NCBI GenBank assembly: GCA_016871015.1
Contig: VFZX01000004.1
Location: forward strand, 1-60,622
DNA: 60,622 bases
Reading direction: 5' to 3'
Origin: Acidobacteriota bacterium
Lineage (GTDB): Bacteria; Acidobacteriota; Terriglobia; Bryobacterales; Bryobacteraceae
Below are positions 21,889 through 41,628 of this stretch, piece by piece. A model generated the notes under the pieces. It was not told where the DNA came from. It was given only the letters and a program-made list of their open reading frames with translations, and did no database searches. The translations under genes and the position numbers were made by a program. Each line of letters opens with the position of its first letter. Position 1 is the first letter of the stretch.

Positions 21889-21907
21889 CCCCGATACAAT
21901 AACATAC
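21889..21907. promoter_or_regulatory. Shared bidirectional leaderless promoter (antiporter / amidohydrolase)
   Basis: Only 19 bases separate ATG 21888 (minus) from GTG 21908 (plus). TACAAT at 21895-21900 is seven bases before GTG 21908. On the other strand TATTGT (21901 to 21896) is seven bases before ATG 21888. Both hexamers are the same base pairs read in opposite directions. Neither start has a Shine-Dalgarno, so both mRNAs would be leaderless. Confidence 0.55.
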
Positions 21908-21973
21908 GTGACTCGCTGAACCCTGATCGCGGCCGCGGGCGCCACGCCGCTCGCCGCCCAGTCCCCGGTCCCT
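21908..21973 (+). other. Signal-peptide region of the amidohydrolase carrying an in-frame TGA
   Basis: From GTG 21908 the frame reads M-T-R, TGA (21917-21919), then TLIAAAGATPLAAQSPVPV and straight into VIDTHIHLFD of the enzyme. Changing TGA to CGA restores MTRRTLIAAAGATPLAAQ, a textbook Tat leader. A single C-to-T change, or a base error, is the simplest explanation. If real, the enzyme would have to start downstream (CTG 21923 or GTG 21974) and would stay in the cytoplasm. Confidence 0.7.
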
Positions 21974-34702: not shown

Positions 34703-35719
34703 CTAACGCCGTTCCAGAAATCCCAGCAAGCCTTCCTCCGCCTGTTCCAGTGCAGGCAGCGATTCACGCTGCTGGACCCGGATCCCAGCCGCCTGAAGTG
34801 GCGCCAAGGCATGCTTGATCTCAGCGTCCTTCACGAAGATCCGCTCCGGAAGGCCACGAGCCTTCCGCACTGCGCCGAGCAGGATCTCCGCCGCAAGTTC
34901 CCCGTCAGTCTTCTCCGGCCCTGCCGCCTGGACTTCCAGGACATACCCCGAACGCTGATCCACCGCAATCGCCACTCTCAGCACGGCTGCACGCTCATTC
35001 TTTCCGCCCACGCTGCTCGCGGTCCAGGCAACTCCCAATTCAAGACGGCCATCGGAAGGACGGTGGGCCTTGAGTTCTTCGATCATCGAATCCGGGATCT
35101 TCTTCACGGGCGCCGGAGTGGAATCCGGGAGGTCCTCGACCGTCAATATGAATCCACCGTCTTCCCGCCGGATGGTAGGATAGTGGCCCGGCCATCTCCG
35201 GGACTGGCCCCACGCGTAGTTGACGGCGCGCAGACACTCCAACAGCGTCTCCCCTTCCGGCTGGTTGACCGGATGAGGATGGTAACGGGGCCGGAAGCTA
35301 TGGAACAAGGGCCGCCGTCCGGATCCCGCTTTCAATCCAAGAGCGGCCAGCATACTTTTCTCCTCGGCCCGCATGTCCTTGGCCAGTTCGAATGACACAG
35401 CCACCGCATCATTGTTGCTGAAGAACGTCTTGATGTCATGTCCAAAGGGCCTCGCCTGCTGCGCCTCGAAGTGGGCCAAGCCGCGCTCGCCGCGGTAGGC
35501 GATCAGCGAGAAGTGTTCGCCCATCGCGCCGGTGATCGTGCAGTAGCGGCTCTCCTCAGGCAGCACGACCCGGAAAAGCTCCCTCTCCGAGATCTGCTCC
35601 CAGGGAGCCAGCTTTTGCAGGATCTGGCTCTCCTGAACCAGTTCCACCGCGGTAGCCCGCGTCAAGGGAGGTTCGTCGCCGATCATCCGGGCGAAGAATA
35701 CTTGTGTGTCGTCGGCCAT
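34703..35719 (-). CDS. Conserved protein with DUF7309/DUF6930-like domains
   Basis: A 338-residue cytoplasmic-looking protein, no signal peptide. Residues about 20-150 (QILQKLAPWEQISERELFRV, HFSLIAYRGERGLAHFEAQQ) and 200-330 (VDQRSGYVLEVQAAGPEKTD, GLPERIFVKDAEIKHALAPLQAAGI) look like the two-part DUF7309/DUF6930 architecture known from SEC-C-type proteins, though I recall this only from memory. It starts three bases after the CocE hydrolase stop and is the third gene of that unit. The function is unknown. Confidence 0.6.
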   Translation of the reverse strand: MADDTQVFFARMIGDEPPLTRATAVELVQESQILQKLAPWEQISERELFRVVLPEESRYCTITGAMGEHFSLIAYRGERGLAHFEAQQARPFGHDIKTFFSNNDAVAVSFELAKDMRAEEKSMLAALGLKAGSGRRPLFHSFRPRYHPHPVNQPEGETLLECLRAVNYAWGQSRRWPGHYPTIRREDGGFILTVEDLPDSTPAPVKKIPDSMIEELKAHRPSDGRLELGVAWTASSVGGKNERAAVLRVAIAVDQRSGYVLEVQAAGPEKTDGELAAEILLGAVRKARGLPERIFVKDAEIKHALAPLQAAGIRVQQRESLPALEQAEEGLLGFLERR

Positions 35720-35722
35720 GAT

Positions 35723-37315
35723 CTATTTGACCACTGGAGCGATAATGCGCGAGGAGTGCCGTCCGCCGTGCAGCACCGTGTTGCGCGCCACGAGCATTCG
35801 CTTGGCAGGTGCGATCGTCAACGGCTCGCCCGTATTCGGATTTGGCTCGTAGAAATCGGCGCCTGTACTGGCGATCGTGACGCGGATCCGGTGGCCGGCT
35901 TGGAATACCTGGCTCAACGAGCCCAAGTCGAACGCGACCTTCTCGATTTGCCCGGGCCGCATCATCACTTCACGCTCAAACCCATGCCGGTACCGCGCGC
36001 GGCGGATCGAATCGACGATCAGGATCGAGCGCCCGTCCGGATAAACATCGCTGATGCGCGCGATGAAATCGGTGTCCGGCGCGGACGAGGTGACCCACAG
36101 CTCGGCCTGGACCTTGCCGGTCCACTCGACTGGTTCCACCAGCACGGGCGTGGTGAATGTGCGCACATCCGGGTGCTGCTCAAACGACCGCGCGTCCTGG
36201 CCGCCTGGAAACGACCGGCTGAGAATCGGTGCAGGACGGTTCGGGTCCGCGATGAACGCGGTCTTCCCTTCCCGGACTGGTGCGTCGAGCGCCAACCCGC
36301 CATCGGCGCCGAGGTAATAGCTCGCCGCACGCGCCGGAACCGGCCAGTCTTTGGCGGTCCGCCACTCGTTGACGCCCATCACGTAGTAGCGCACGATGGG
36401 GTCGCGATCGACGCCGTTCGCTTTACCCTTCAAGTGGAAGTCGAACCACCGGATCATGTGATCGTAGAGGTCCACCTTGGCGTTGTCCGGATACTCGATG
36501 TCGCCGATCTTGGAATTGATCTTGTTGCCACCGTGCAGCCACGGTCCAAGGATGAGCTGCTGGCGGCCGCGTGATGCGGGTCCGCCGCGGTGCTGCCGGC
36601 CGATGAAGCTCTGAATCGAGCCCACGCTCATGAAGTCGTACCAGCTTCCCACGGTGTAGGAGGGCACGTTCATCTTGTGGAAGAACCGCGTGCAATCCTC
36701 ATCCTTCCAATACGCATCGTAGGTGGGATGCTGGAAGATCTCTTCCATCCACCGCGCGTTGTCAGCCGGATTCCGGCACATGGCCGCCATGGCCTCAAAC
36801 CGGCGCGGACGCGTGGTTCCGCCAATCCGGTAGCCCTCATGATACAGGCTCAGGCCAGTGTCGATCATGTACTGAGCAACCAGGTGCGGAGGCTGCGTCA
36901 CGGCCAGAAAATTCTGCGCATAGCCGGCCTGCGAACCTCCGAAAGTTCCGATCTTGCCGCTCGACCACGGCTGCTTCGCCAGCCACTCGACCGTATCGAA
37001 ACCGTCCTTCAGCTCACCCCACCCGAGCGCCCGGTATCCGTTATAGACGCCCTCGGAAAGCTGCGTCCCACGGAAGTTCTCGGCCGCCACAACATAGCCG
37101 TGCGACGCGAGTCTCCGGTAGGTCTGCCTGGTGCCCTGTGCCGTGAGACTGGCATAACGCTGCTCATAGAGCACGGGCCACGGACCCGGACCTTCCGGGA
37201 TGTAAAGGTACACCGACAGCTTCACGCCGTCTCGCATTGGCACCATCACGTGCTGTTCCTTGACTGCCTCGGCGCTGAGCAGCAGGGGAATCGCGGCCGC
37301 CAACCAGCGCGTCAT
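35723..37315 (-). CDS. CocE/NonD family hydrolase, exported
   Basis: A 530-residue intact relative of the broken gene at 29449-31382. Signal peptide about 1-18 (LAAAIPLLLSAEA). N-domain QHVMVPMRDGVKLSVYLYIP; nucleophile elbow GKIGTFGGSQAGYAQ; C-terminal jelly roll with VEWTGKVQAELWVTSSAPDTDF and the end NTVLHGGRHSSRIIAPV. Members cleave X-Pro peptides, cocaine-type esters or acyl groups; the substrate is unknown. GGAGGT lies just before the ATG, which overlaps the stop of the UxuA-like gene by four bases (ATGA). Confidence 0.88.
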   Translation of the reverse strand: MTRWLAAAIPLLLSAEAVKEQHVMVPMRDGVKLSVYLYIPEGPGPWPVLYEQRYASLTAQGTRQTYRRLASHGYVVAAENFRGTQLSEGVYNGYRALGWGELKDGFDTVEWLAKQPWSSGKIGTFGGSQAGYAQNFLAVTQPPHLVAQYMIDTGLSLYHEGYRIGGTTRPRRFEAMAAMCRNPADNARWMEEIFQHPTYDAYWKDEDCTRFFHKMNVPSYTVGSWYDFMSVGSIQSFIGRQHRGGPASRGRQQLILGPWLHGGNKINSKIGDIEYPDNAKVDLYDHMIRWFDFHLKGKANGVDRDPIVRYYVMGVNEWRTAKDWPVPARAASYYLGADGGLALDAPVREGKTAFIADPNRPAPILSRSFPGGQDARSFEQHPDVRTFTTPVLVEPVEWTGKVQAELWVTSSAPDTDFIARISDVYPDGRSILIVDSIRRARYRHGFEREVMMRPGQIEKVAFDLGSLSQVFQAGHRIRVTIASTGADFYEPNPNTGEPLTIAPAKRMLVARNTVLHGGRHSSRIIAPVVK

Positions 37316-38376
37316 CCGACCTCCTCGTTGGCGCGCCGCAGCAGCGCCCGCATGTAGGAAATGATGTAGGACGTCCCCGCGCGCGGCATGCCGCCCGAAT
37401 CACCCGACAACCGCGGAACGTGATCCGGCTCGGCTGCGCCGGTGAACTTCACTTGCCGCAGCGCCTTCATGATTTCGTACATGTCCATGTAGCCGTCATC
37501 GGGGAACGTCTCAACGAAATGCGGCAGCGGAGACGACACGTTTCGAAAATGCACTTCGAAGATCTTGCCGCGTCCGCCGAAGTCCTTGATCATCTCAAAC
37601 ACGTTCTTGCCCATCTTGTCGCCGCCTTCCATCCAAGTTCCGGCGCAGAAGGTCAGGCCCCAGTTCTTGCTTCCGCCGGAAATCTGCTCGGCGCGTTTGT
37701 ACCCGTCGTAGCGGACAAACAGCTTGGCGACGCCATTCATCTTTGCGATCGGCGGATCGTCGGGGTGCAGGGCGAGCTTGACACCCGCCTCCTCGGCCAC
37801 CGGAAGCACGGCTTTGGTCAAGTAGCTGTAGTGCGACCAAATCTCCTCGGCGTCGTATTCGCGCTCAAAAGCCTGCTTCTCAACCTTCGCTCGGAAGTCG
37901 GCGAGATTGAACTCGCGCGCGGTGTATCCGCGCCGGACCACGTGGTTGGTCGTATACGTGTTGGCGGGATGGAAATCGTACGATGCGATCGGAATCCCAA
38001 GCTTTCCGCAGTCGCGCAGGAACTGCCGGTAGGTCTCGATATGCTTGTCGCGGCCCGGACGCCCGAGCTGGACGTCGAGTTCGCGGTAGGCGTAGTGGAC
38101 ACCTGAGAAGATCCGGATTCCATGCTTCTCAAAGCGCTTCTGCAGCGCCGCCAGCTTGTCCAGAGGTGTATGAGTTGTTCCGAACTCGACCCGCGCCCAC
38201 TTGAGCCCGATCTGCTGCAGGAACAGCATTTCGTCGTCGGTGATCGTGTTGCCGTTTAGCCGGTGAGCGATCTTGGTGTTGCCATCGGCGTATTCTTCGA
38301 TTCGCGGCTTCCCGCCCGGAAGCGGAGACGCCAGAGCAAGCGAACCAAGCTTGAGCCATTCCCTGCGCGTTTTCAT
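37312..38376 (-). CDS. Mannonate dehydratase-like protein (UxuA family), Tat-exported
   Basis: A 354-residue protein starting at ATG 38376; an in-frame GTG at 38379 is also possible. Tat leader KTRREWLKLGSLALASPLPG. UxuA-like TIM barrel features: WARVEFGTTHTPLDKL, RIFSGVHYAYRELDV, VKLALHPDDPPI, GLTFCAGTWMEGGD, EVHFRNVSSPLPHFVETFPDDGYMDM and AEPDHVP. UxuA dehydrates D-mannonate in hexuronate breakdown, normally in the cytoplasm. Export is unusual, so the real substrate may differ. It heads a three-gene unit and is divergent from a TonB-type receptor. Confidence 0.85.
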   Translation of the reverse strand: MKTRREWLKLGSLALASPLPGGKPRIEEYADGNTKIAHRLNGNTITDDEMLFLQQIGLKWARVEFGTTHTPLDKLAALQKRFEKHGIRIFSGVHYAYRELDVQLGRPGRDKHIETYRQFLRDCGKLGIPIASYDFHPANTYTTNHVVRRGYTAREFNLADFRAKVEKQAFEREYDAEEIWSHYSYLTKAVLPVAEEAGVKLALHPDDPPIAKMNGVAKLFVRYDGYKRAEQISGGSKNWGLTFCAGTWMEGGDKMGKNVFEMIKDFGGRGKIFEVHFRNVSSPLPHFVETFPDDGYMDMYEIMKALRQVKFTGAAEPDHVPRLSGDSGGMPRAGTSYIISYMRALLRRANEEVG

Positions 38377-38379
38377 CAC

Positions 38380-38397
38380 GTTTGATAATATCCCATC
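38380..38397. promoter_or_regulatory. Shared bidirectional leaderless promoter (UxuA-like / receptor)
   Basis: The intergenic region is 18-21 bases. It contains GATAATATC. On the plus strand TAATAT (38386-38391) is six bases before GTG 38398. On the minus strand TATTAT (38390 to 38385) is eight bases before ATG 38376, or five before GTG 38379. There is no Shine-Dalgarno on either side. Confidence 0.6.
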
Positions 38398-41300
38398 GTG
38401 ACCCGAATGATCTCAAGACTCTCACTCGCCGCCATCAGCGCCGCCACCGTGGCACTCGCTCAACCGAGCGCGCTCTTGACCGGCACTGTTGTGGATCCGT
38501 CCGGAGCGGTGGTGGCCGGCGCCGAAGTCGTCTGCCGCAATTCTCAGACTGGACTCACGCTGAAGGCTGCCACCAGCGCCGAAGGACTCTTTCGATTCCC
38601 CGATCTCCCGATCGGTTCCTACGAAGTCACCGTGACGCACGCAGGCTTCGAGCAGCATGTGCGCACCGGGTTGACCATGCTCACGGGCCGCAGCACGGAT
38701 CTCCGCGTCCAGCTCCAGGTCAGCGGTGAACAACGGCGCGTCACCGTTACGGCGCCGTCGCCCGTGGTCCAGCCCACGGCGTCCGAGGTCCAGGTCTCAA
38801 TTGACGCGCGCAGCGTCCGGGAGTTACCCCTGAACGGCCGGAATCCATTGCAGCTCCTCTCGCTCACCGCCGGCAGCGTGGACACCGGCGGGCGGAACGG
38901 CGGCTCGCTCAACTTCCAGGCCGCGAACAACCAGGTGGCGGTTAACGGCAATCGCGGCACCGACAACACGTTCGAGCTGGACGGGGCGGCCTACACCGAT
39001 GTCCACTTCGGGTCCGCGCCCGTGCTTCCAAGTCCTGACGCGCTCGAGGAGTTCACCATCAAGTCGTCGAACTTCAGCGCCAGCCAGTCCGGCGCCGGAG
39101 CGAGCGTGCAGTTCGCCACCCGCGCGGGCACAAACGAATTCCACGGATCGCTGTTTGAATTCCTGCGGAACAACCGGCTCGACGCCCGGAATTTCTTTGC
39201 CTCGCGCTCCACCACGTTCAAGCGGAACCAGTTCGGGGGCACTTTCGGCGGCCGGATCATCAAGGACCGCACCTTCTTCTTCGCCTCCTACCAGGGAACC
39301 CGGGTCATCGGCGGCGCCAATCCCACGACAACGGTTCTGGCGTCGGCGCCCCTCCGCCGCGGCGACTTTTCCGGGTTCTCCCGGACCCTCGTCGATCCCC
39401 TCAGCCGCGCGCCATTCCCCGGCAATCAGATTCCAGCCAACCGGATGGACCCGGTGACGCAGAAGGTTCTCGCACTCATCCCGGTTCCGGCGCAGCCCAC
39501 TGGTATCGCCACCCTCGCGACCAGGCCCCGCACCGATCAGGAAGATCACCAGGTGTCCATCCGGATCGACCACAACTTGTCGTCCAAAGACCGGTTGACA
39601 GGACGGTATTTCCTCGACAATTTCGATTTCCAGAATCCCAGTAGCGCCCTCCCGGACTTCTACGCCGTCGTCAAGTACCGCAACCGGAACTTGCTGATTA
39701 GCGAAACGCACACTTTCAATCCGAACCTGCTCTTCGTGGGATCGTTCAGCTACACCGGCGTGCCGCGGACTTCCGGCGGCAACCCGGGCGTGCCCTCCAT
39801 GCAGTCGTTCGGCGCGAATGTACCGCCCGCGGTCCAGGGGCTGAAGACGGAGTTGCGAGTCACCATCACCGGCTACGCCGCGCCGTTCAGCGGTCCGCTC
39901 ATCGACGTGCGCCCGAGCACCTACGAGTTTCGCGGCCGGTTTAACTGGAACCGCGGCCGCCACGCGCTCCAATACGGAGCCGATGTCCGCCGCAACGGTG
40001 AATACGCGCTCACTCCCGCCCAGGCGCAAGGCGGCTGGACCTACAACGGATCCCGCACTGCCGCTGCGAATATCCCCAATTCCGGAGATTCGTTCGCCGA
40101 CTTCCTGATCGGCCTGCCTTTCCAGTTCGCCCAGCAGGGAGCCTCGCCGCAGGACATCCGCGAGATCCACTGGCTGCCCTGGATCCAGGACGACTGGCGG
40201 ATCCACTCGCGGCTGACCCTGAATCTCGGTCTCCGCTGGGAACCTTGGCTGCCTCCGATCGATGATGCCGCGCCACAGGTCGGCTTCCTTCCGGGGGTGC
40301 AGTCGCAAGTCGCGCCGGATGCTCCCCTGGGACTCGTCTTCTCGGGCGACCCTGGCCTCCGGCGGTCGATCCTCCGCGAGGACTGGAACAATCTCGCTCC
40401 CCGCGTGGGCTTCGCCTGGGACGTGACCGGAACAGGCCAGACCATCGTCCGCGGCGCATACGGAATCTTCTACCGTCCGGTCGGCATGAACATCCAACGG
40501 TTCTCTGGAAACACAGCCACGTTCCGCGGCCTCGTCATCCAGATCGCAAACCCTCCCAGCACCGCCGATCCCTACCAGGGCTACCCAGGCGGGAACCCCT
40601 TCCTCACCTGGAAGCCGCCCACCAGCCCCGACGAGTTGAAGACCTACCGGTTCCCGCGGCCGAGCTCCACATCCGGTCTTGAGCCGGACACCCCGGCAAG
40701 CTACGTGCAAACGTGGAACTTTACTGTCGAACGCCAGCTCCGCCCGGACCTCGGGGTTTCCGCCGCCTACGTCGGCAACCACATGATCAAAGGGACCAGT
40801 TCCACGGAGGGCAATCCCGCCTTGTTCGGTCCTGGTGCATCCGCCGCCAACGTGAACGCGCGGCGGCCATTCGCGGGCATCGCGTCGCTGCAAATGGTCC
40901 GGGCGTTCCAATTTTCCAACTACCACTCCGCGCAATTCAACGTCACCAAGCGCGCAGCGGCAGGACTCAGCGTGTTGGGGAACTATGTATTTTCCAAGTG
41001 CCTGGACAACAATTCCGGGACCATTGGCGGCGTTTCAGTGATCAATAAGCTCAATCCCAACCGCGACTACGGACGATGCGACTTCGACATCGCTCACGTC
41101 GGCAACATTTCGTTTCTGTATGATGTTCCAAAGATCGTTTCCCTTCAAGGCATCGCCGGGCGGATCATCAACCACTGGCAGGTGAACAGCATCTTCAGCA
41201 TTCGCGGCGGATTCCCATTCTCGGTTCAGAGCGGCCGCGACAACGCCCAGTCCGGCCCCACAACGAACTCGGGAGTGAACGATCTGGCCGACCAGATTTC

Positions 41301-41628
41301 GGCCCAGTCCGGACGGCCTGCCGGCGCGGATCAGATTCAGAGCTGGTTCAATACAGCGGCCTATGTCCAAAACGCCGCGGGAACGTTCGGAAACAGCGGC
41401 CGGAATGCTCTCAAGGCTCCCGGGGCGTTCGTGTGGGACTTTGGATTGGTCAAGGGGATCCCGGTGACCGAGCGGGTCCGCGCGGAGTTCCGGTTTGAGG
41501 CTTTCAACTTCATCAACCACACCAACCTCGGAGGCCCGGTGGCCTCGCTCGCGTCTCCGCTATTCGGGCGGATCCAGACGGCCGGTGCGCCGAGAATTCT
41601 GCAGTTGGCTCTCAAGATCGCGTTCTGA
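38398..41628 (+). CDS. TonB-dependent receptor-like protein with carboxypeptidase-regulatory domain (Oar type)
   Basis: A 1076-residue outer-membrane receptor from GTG 38398 (ATG 38407 is the alternative). Signal peptide about 1-20, then a CarboxypepD_reg domain (LLTGTVVDPSGAVVAGAEVV, SAEGLFRFPDLPIGSYEVTV). The plug region follows (SIDARSVRELPLNGRNPLQLLSLTAG, RNGGSLNFQAANNQ, VNGNRGTDNTFELDGA), then the barrel, ending LQLALKIAF. The motif RELPLNGRNP is shared with acidobacterial Oar-like proteins. It is divergent from the UxuA-like gene, suggesting uptake of uronates or related oligosaccharides, by inference. The TonB box is not obvious. Confidence 0.9.
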   Translation: MTRMISRLSLAAISAATVALAQPSALLTGTVVDPSGAVVAGAEVVCRNSQTGLTLKAATSAEGLFRFPDLPIGSYEVTVTHAGFEQHVRTGLTMLTGRSTDLRVQLQVSGEQRRVTVTAPSPVVQPTASEVQVSIDARSVRELPLNGRNPLQLLSLTAGSVDTGGRNGGSLNFQAANNQVAVNGNRGTDNTFELDGAAYTDVHFGSAPVLPSPDALEEFTIKSSNFSASQSGAGASVQFATRAGTNEFHGSLFEFLRNNRLDARNFFASRSTTFKRNQFGGTFGGRIIKDRTFFFASYQGTRVIGGANPTTTVLASAPLRRGDFSGFSRTLVDPLSRAPFPGNQIPANRMDPVTQKVLALIPVPAQPTGIATLATRPRTDQEDHQVSIRIDHNLSSKDRLTGRYFLDNFDFQNPSSALPDFYAVVKYRNRNLLISETHTFNPNLLFVGSFSYTGVPRTSGGNPGVPSMQSFGANVPPAVQGLKTELRVTITGYAAPFSGPLIDVRPSTYEFRGRFNWNRGRHALQYGADVRRNGEYALTPAQAQGGWTYNGSRTAAANIPNSGDSFADFLIGLPFQFAQQGASPQDIREIHWLPWIQDDWRIHSRLTLNLGLRWEPWLPPIDDAAPQVGFLPGVQSQVAPDAPLGLVFSGDPGLRRSILREDWNNLAPRVGFAWDVTGTGQTIVRGAYGIFYRPVGMNIQRFSGNTATFRGLVIQIANPPSTADPYQGYPGGNPFLTWKPPTSPDELKTYRFPRPSSTSGLEPDTPASYVQTWNFTVERQLRPDLGVSAAYVGNHMIKGTSSTEGNPALFGPGASAANVNARRPFAGIASLQMVRAFQFSNYHSAQFNVTKRAAAGLSVLGNYVFSKCLDNNSGTIGGVSVINKLNPNRDYGRCDFDIAHVGNISFLYDVPKIVSLQGIAGRIINHWQVNSIFSIRGGFPFSVQSGRDNAQSGPTTNSGVNDLADQISAQSGRPAGADQIQSWFNTAAYVQNAAGTFGNSGRNALKAPGAFVWDFGLVKGIPVTERVRAEFRFEAFNFINHTNLGGPVASLASPLFGRIQTAGAPRILQLALKIAF

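Follow-up and report, generated by a model that had tools for sequence, protein, structure and literature searches.

Two previously described kinds of promoter come closest to the locus considered here. The first comprises the Warman/Grainger bidirectional promoters (PMC12825309, PMC10268837), in which a -10 element is shared between the strands and a start-site spacing of 18 bp is commonest, with spacings of 10 and 23 bp also common and slight deviations tolerated. The second comprises the leaderless TANNNT promoters (PMC3160421), described also for Deinococcus-Thermus (PMC12340547). A 21-nt intergenic gap between a UxuA-like gene and a divergent gene for an Oar-like outer-membrane receptor, located in the window (the whole analysed stretch of 60,622 nt; Table 1), probably combines the two kinds. 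Similar to the Warman/Grainger promoters, the -10 readings on its opposite strands overlap, the distance between its predicted start sites lies within the published range of 10-23 bp, and other sites in the source genome have offsets equal to the reported spacings of 18 and 23 bp. Unlike in those promoters, the predicted starts are the start codons themselves, so the entire intergenic region would be core promoter; furthermore, the 4-bp offset of the focal hexamers is not among the preferred offsets, and transcription of the focal gap is predicted from sequence. The gap resembles the leaderless promoters in having the same hexamer at the same distance from the start codon and no room for a Shine-Dalgarno sequence, whereas here two such promoters face each other and overlap. 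A term search of the Deinococcus-Thermus paper (PMC12340547) returned no mention of divergent or bidirectional arrangements, and no description of a leaderless bidirectional pair was found in the literature, which is weak evidence in that most subscription papers lay outside the search.

The minus-strand side of the gap is led by the UxuA-like gene, which starts at ATG 38376, with GTG 38379 directly upstream and in frame, and whose product has, as judged by eye, an apparent export signal with an RR near the N-terminus. We infer that this gene and the overlapping hydrolase gene belong to one transcription unit. The original prediction had called the minus side a sugar-acid enzyme unit, a description that does not fit, as the unit consists of the UxuA-like, S15-type hydrolase, and DUF7309/DUF6930 genes and contains no recognisable sugar-acid operon. 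On the plus strand, the receptor comprises 1076 aa if counted from GTG 38398 and 1073 aa from ATG 38407. As a side observation, the receptor query returned approximately 420 first-look candidates in the source genome, only the best of which were scored, and the receptor family looks very large.

Table 1. Positions of the genes, hexamers, and comparison sites (coordinates refer to the window; d, spacing in nt between the initial base of the hexamer and that of the start codon).
Feature	Position or loci	Strand	Details
DUF7309/DUF6930 gene	34703..35719	-	ORF; 3 nt downstream of the hydrolase gene
S15/CocE-type hydrolase gene	35723..37315	-	PF02129/PF08530; ORF; 4-nt overlap with the UxuA-like gene
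UxuA-like TIM-barrel gene, 354 aa	37312..38376	-	PF03786, 140.9 bits; ORF
Intergenic gap, proposed bidirectional leaderless promoter	38377..38397	both directions	21 nt, including the alternative minus start GTG 38379
Minus -10 hexamer TATTAT	38385..38390	-	d = 14 to ATG 38376, 8 nt between; PWM score 7.56
Plus -10 hexamer TAATAT	38386..38391	+	d = 12 to GTG 38398, 6 nt between; PWM score 6.55
Oar-like outer-membrane receptor gene	38398..41628	+	PF25183, 725 bits; PF13620; gene call
Second site named in the original prediction	21889..21907		TACAAT on +, 21895-21900; TATTGT on -, 21901-21896; both d = 13
UxuA/MsrA loci of genus g55	L198, L199, L201, L202, L203, L205, L217, L219, L220, L221		ten loci, several of them same-species duplicates

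The gap reads CACGTTTGATAATATCCCATC, is flanked by TTTTCAT on the left and GTGACC on the right, and shrinks from 21 to 18 nt if GTG 38379 rather than ATG 38376 is taken as the minus start. Both hexamers and spacings that had been predicted, TAATAT before GTG 38398 and TATTAT before ATG 38376, are present as described; they overlap by 5 bp within the A+T block ATAATAT (38385-38391), and the minus hexamer has d = 11 to GTG 38379, with 5 nt between. Both strands of the gap carry TANNNT approximately 12 nt before a start codon, within or near the peak of d = 12-15 found across the genome. The plus hexamer is preceded by TGA (38383-38385), forming an extended -10, and contains an in-frame TAA (38386-38388), so that no plus start before GTG 38398 is usable; the next candidate is ATG 38407. 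As read from the sequence, the segments between the -10 and the start codon, CCCATC on the plus strand and CAAACGTG on the minus strand, are without a Shine-Dalgarno motif. Two details count against the hexamers: their position 4 is T, the rarest base there (6% among aligned sites), and the base at -18, by direct reading, is G and not T on both strands. The hexamer offset of 4 bp places the predicted start sites approximately 20-22 bp apart (20 at ideal spacing) compared with the commonest 18 bp, and the start codons are 22 bp apart, or 19 bp if GTG 38379 is used. Depending on whether GTG or ATG is used on each side, a leader of 3-9 nt could precede the coding sequence in either predicted transcript.

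To place these hexamers in their genomic context, 1.25 Mb from the largest contigs (the window plus 60 stretches) of the source assembly (8.66 Mb, 720 contigs) were analysed. The named relatives of its UxuA-like gene are for the most part Acidobacteria, Bryobacterales, and Bryobacteraceae assemblies, which points to Bryobacteraceae as the probable family of the source genome. A simple codon-usage gene finder yielded 947 genes covering 89% of the sequence as coding; the starts are therefore predicted ones, and were first set by coding score and start-codon type alone, with the upstream sequence ignored. TANNNT peaked at d = 12, 13, 14, and 15 (39, 34, 31, and 30 genes, respectively, against roughly 2-15 at other distances), and after removal of stretch overlaps it occurred at d = 12-15 in 134 of 919 predicted starts (14.6%) vs 20.2 (2.2%) in control windows. 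The 151 best sites, aligned on the hexamer, displayed a TAYAAT preference and TG at -3/-2 (G in 58% at -2), with no -35 element visible; the T, A, and T anchors of this set are a product of site selection, while the TG and the downstream preferences are not. Training of the -10 matrix used this very sample, with the window included, and the plain TANNNT count is independent of the matrix; the score threshold of 4.5 bits, like the other thresholds and the start tolerance, was the analyst's choice. Judged from sequence, this TANNNT/extended -10 pattern is that of leaderless promoters, and it matches published estimates for Acidobacteria, in which 13.3% of genes on average were estimated to be leaderless (PMC3160421).

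For a gap of the focal length (21 nt), chance alone places a TANNNT at d = 11-16 on each side in 1.0% of cases under the genome's upstream composition and in 6.4% under shuffles of the focal gap. With a chance of 1-6% per gap, the focal site alone is only suggestive, and the weight rests on the genome-wide pattern. Alternatively, only one direction could be a real promoter and the other reading chance symmetry, in which case the second gene would be transcribed from another site or carry a short leader. Shuffles of the gap's own composition give a correctly placed TANNNT in 15-18% of cases per side, TG precedes the plus hexamer only, and the receptor could start at ATG 38407, the choice of the coding-only gene caller. 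Even so, we regard this alternative as unlikely: both hexamers exceed the 4.5-bit threshold, there is no other non-coding room immediately upstream of either gene for a promoter, and 18 of 42 other orthologs of the UxuA-like gene keep a scoring leaderless-type -10 (d = 11-16) close to the aligned start, a count in which several candidate starts were tried per gene, raising the chance level.

Other readings of the gap were considered as well. A consensus -35/-10 scan identified TTGATA/AATGAT, which extends into the receptor gene, and, on the minus strand, TTGAGA-18-GATATT; a canonical -35/-10 promoter is not preferred, with GATATT scoring -1.0 by the genome's own matrix and no -35 visible in the aligned set, though polymerase may make a -35 contact on the minus side. 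In addition, GATAATATC is almost perfectly palindromic (GATAWTATC), and the genome contains 11 copies of it compared with 2 of the reversed control, as might be expected for the operator of a dedicated regulator rather than a promoter element. We consider such an operator very improbable, as local gene calls put several of the ten remaining copies within predicted genes, the copies have no promoter context in common, and what the compact gaps described below have in common is the TANNNT layout, not GATAATATC. As a repeated operator, GATAATATC was consequently rejected for want of any context common to its other copies. Within the window it is present in a single copy, and allowing up to one mismatch gave 2 matches vs 2.9 expected, i.e., the word is not enriched.

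Compact gaps with scoring hexamers on both sides (d = 11-16, gap 10-45 nt) recurred in the source genome: with starts up to 8 score units below the best allowed, they separated 11 of 123 divergent pairs, compared with 0.17 for dinucleotide shuffles. Stricter starts gave 10 vs 0.47 (within 4 units) and 5 vs 0.24 (coding-best only), and the plain TANNNT count gave 11 of 121 divergent pairs vs 0.78 in mononucleotide shuffles; the focal gap was among the 11 in both counts. The hexamers overlap in 8 of the 11 compact gaps, 6 of these with an offset of 1 or 6 bp, for which ideal spacing gives start-site distances of 23 and 18 bp, respectively, compared with the focal offset of 4. In a second genome of the same genus (G002, 400 kb), 2 of 41 divergent pairs qualified vs 0.08 expected, a small sample, and in similarly small samples no compact both-sided gaps were found among 48 pairs of a family member (G010), 35 of an order member (G040), and 51 of E. 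coli K-12. Plasmid samples of Deinococcus, whose phylum has many leaderless genes, yielded 1 of 56, again a small sample and one in which plasmids may misrepresent chromosomes. Compact double-leaderless gaps look like a by-product of many leaderless promoters combined with tightly packed divergent genes in the genus. We tentatively suggest, with somewhat less than even confidence, a genus-wide organisation in which approximately 9% of divergent pairs (about 75 when extrapolated to 8.66 Mb) would be separated only by one core promoter; on the same footing, this core region might span 20-36 bp, often with a single shared -10 and with upstream contacts lying in the neighbour's coding sequence.

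The original prediction also named a second site of the same design (Table 1), and there the layout was confirmed: the hexamer starts are 6 apart, which would give start sites 18 bp apart at d = 12, and the minus ORF from ATG 21888 is open. The plus gene, an amidohydrolase-like one, makes the site a doubtful leaderless example, for the frame opened by GTG 21908 has TGA as its fourth codon (VTR*TLIAAAG; 21908-21919). In seven homologs, the position of this TGA holds the second arginine of an RR-containing N-terminus. The TGA may be a real interruption or an error of sequencing; alternatively, the gene has a later start.

Considering these results, the 21-nt gap is probably a leaderless bidirectional promoter, and this part of the original prediction stands as the best reading, given that the spacing matches the genome's -10 peak on both strands and that the layout recurs. 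The full account, which we consider likely, has the housekeeping sigma factor using the gap as a core promoter in both orientations, with a -10 on either strand and leaderless mRNAs. Polymerase carrying this sigma factor would recognise the gap as a core promoter and read ATAATAT as a -10 on either strand, with TAATAT and its upstream TG directing transcription of the receptor gene and TATTAT that of the UxuA-like operon. RNA polymerase would bind in one orientation at a time, transcription would start at, or a few bases from, each start codon to give leaderless mRNAs, and contacts upstream of the -10 would fall inside the coding sequence of the partner gene. The hexamers, their spacings, the positional enrichment, the recurrence above shuffles, and an equivalent element in another genus were computed; we infer the sigma factor, transcription both ways, the exact start sites, and competition between polymerases.

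That equivalent element was found in several species of genus g55, where the UxuA-like ortholog is divergent, across a gap of 24-28 nt, from a gene that we take to encode MsrA from its GCFWCLE motif; the partner genes are homologous among the loci (Table 1). The ten loci contain five distinct junctions. All of these have an unchanged TGATGATAT with TCT or GCT after it but vary in their flanks and spacings, and each start still lies 12-15 nt from its own hexamer despite the changed spacings. An equivalent core is thus kept in another genus, facing a different partner. Separately, in loci L191 and L192 of yet another genus, the UxuA-like ortholog is divergent from a gene of 373-387 aa at a distance of about 40 nt, with a scoring -10 before the UxuA-like gene in L192. 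The focal pair itself had no conserved counterpart among the UxuA and receptor orthologs examined, and in the family and order samples, with neighbours taken from our own gene finder, none of the 42 other UxuA orthologs had a divergent receptor neighbour.

The two flanking genes had further been predicted to be linked in expression through a single element, which on this reading would have evolved to co-express an outer-membrane receptor and a sugar-acid enzyme unit. The divergent arrangement with overlapping -10 readings is what such a link would look like, but the evidence from relatives and from the rest of the genome makes it highly implausible. Within the family sample, none of the UxuA orthologs is arranged divergently with a receptor gene; receptor-like genes lie upstream of the UxuA ortholog in the same direction in three loci (L013, L017, and L196), and upstream of the best receptor ortholog (L206, 63%) there is a short gene call on the same strand instead of a divergent UxuA-like gene. 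In the source genome (G000), 36% of divergent genes had TANNNT at d = 12-15 with flexible starts, and 17 double-sided leaderless pairs were found vs 15.6 expected under independence of the two sides; in 10 of the 17, the gap measured 21-36 nt. Double-sided pairs are therefore not in excess, selection for pairing as such is unsupported by this count, and it is the shortness of the gap that stands out. Moreover, in five other compact pairs both partners had Pfam matches, i.e., they are real genes, with no obvious common pathway (SAICAR synthetase, for instance, is paired with a PCP_red-domain protein, and in another case an S41 peptidase is the partner of a DUF72 protein), so that the partners look functionally unrelated. 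Such promoters also bind one polymerase at a time (PMC12825309): in those bidirectional promoters of E. coli that were studied, binding in one orientation blocked the other, basal activity did not suffice for competition, and one side could be repressed when the other was strongly activated (PMC12825309). With only one polymerase bound at a time, a shared element need not co-activate both genes, and by analogy the focal element by itself would not coordinate the two. The receptor-enzyme link should accordingly not be carried forward.

For annotation, the genome-wide pattern favours start codons located 12-15 nt from a -10 over those chosen by coding score alone. If transcription is confirmed, the genus would offer many natural minimal bidirectional promoters, without leaders and almost without intergenic DNA, and would allow a direct test of how polymerase chooses its orientation at a shared -10 and of the leaderless translation of both products.
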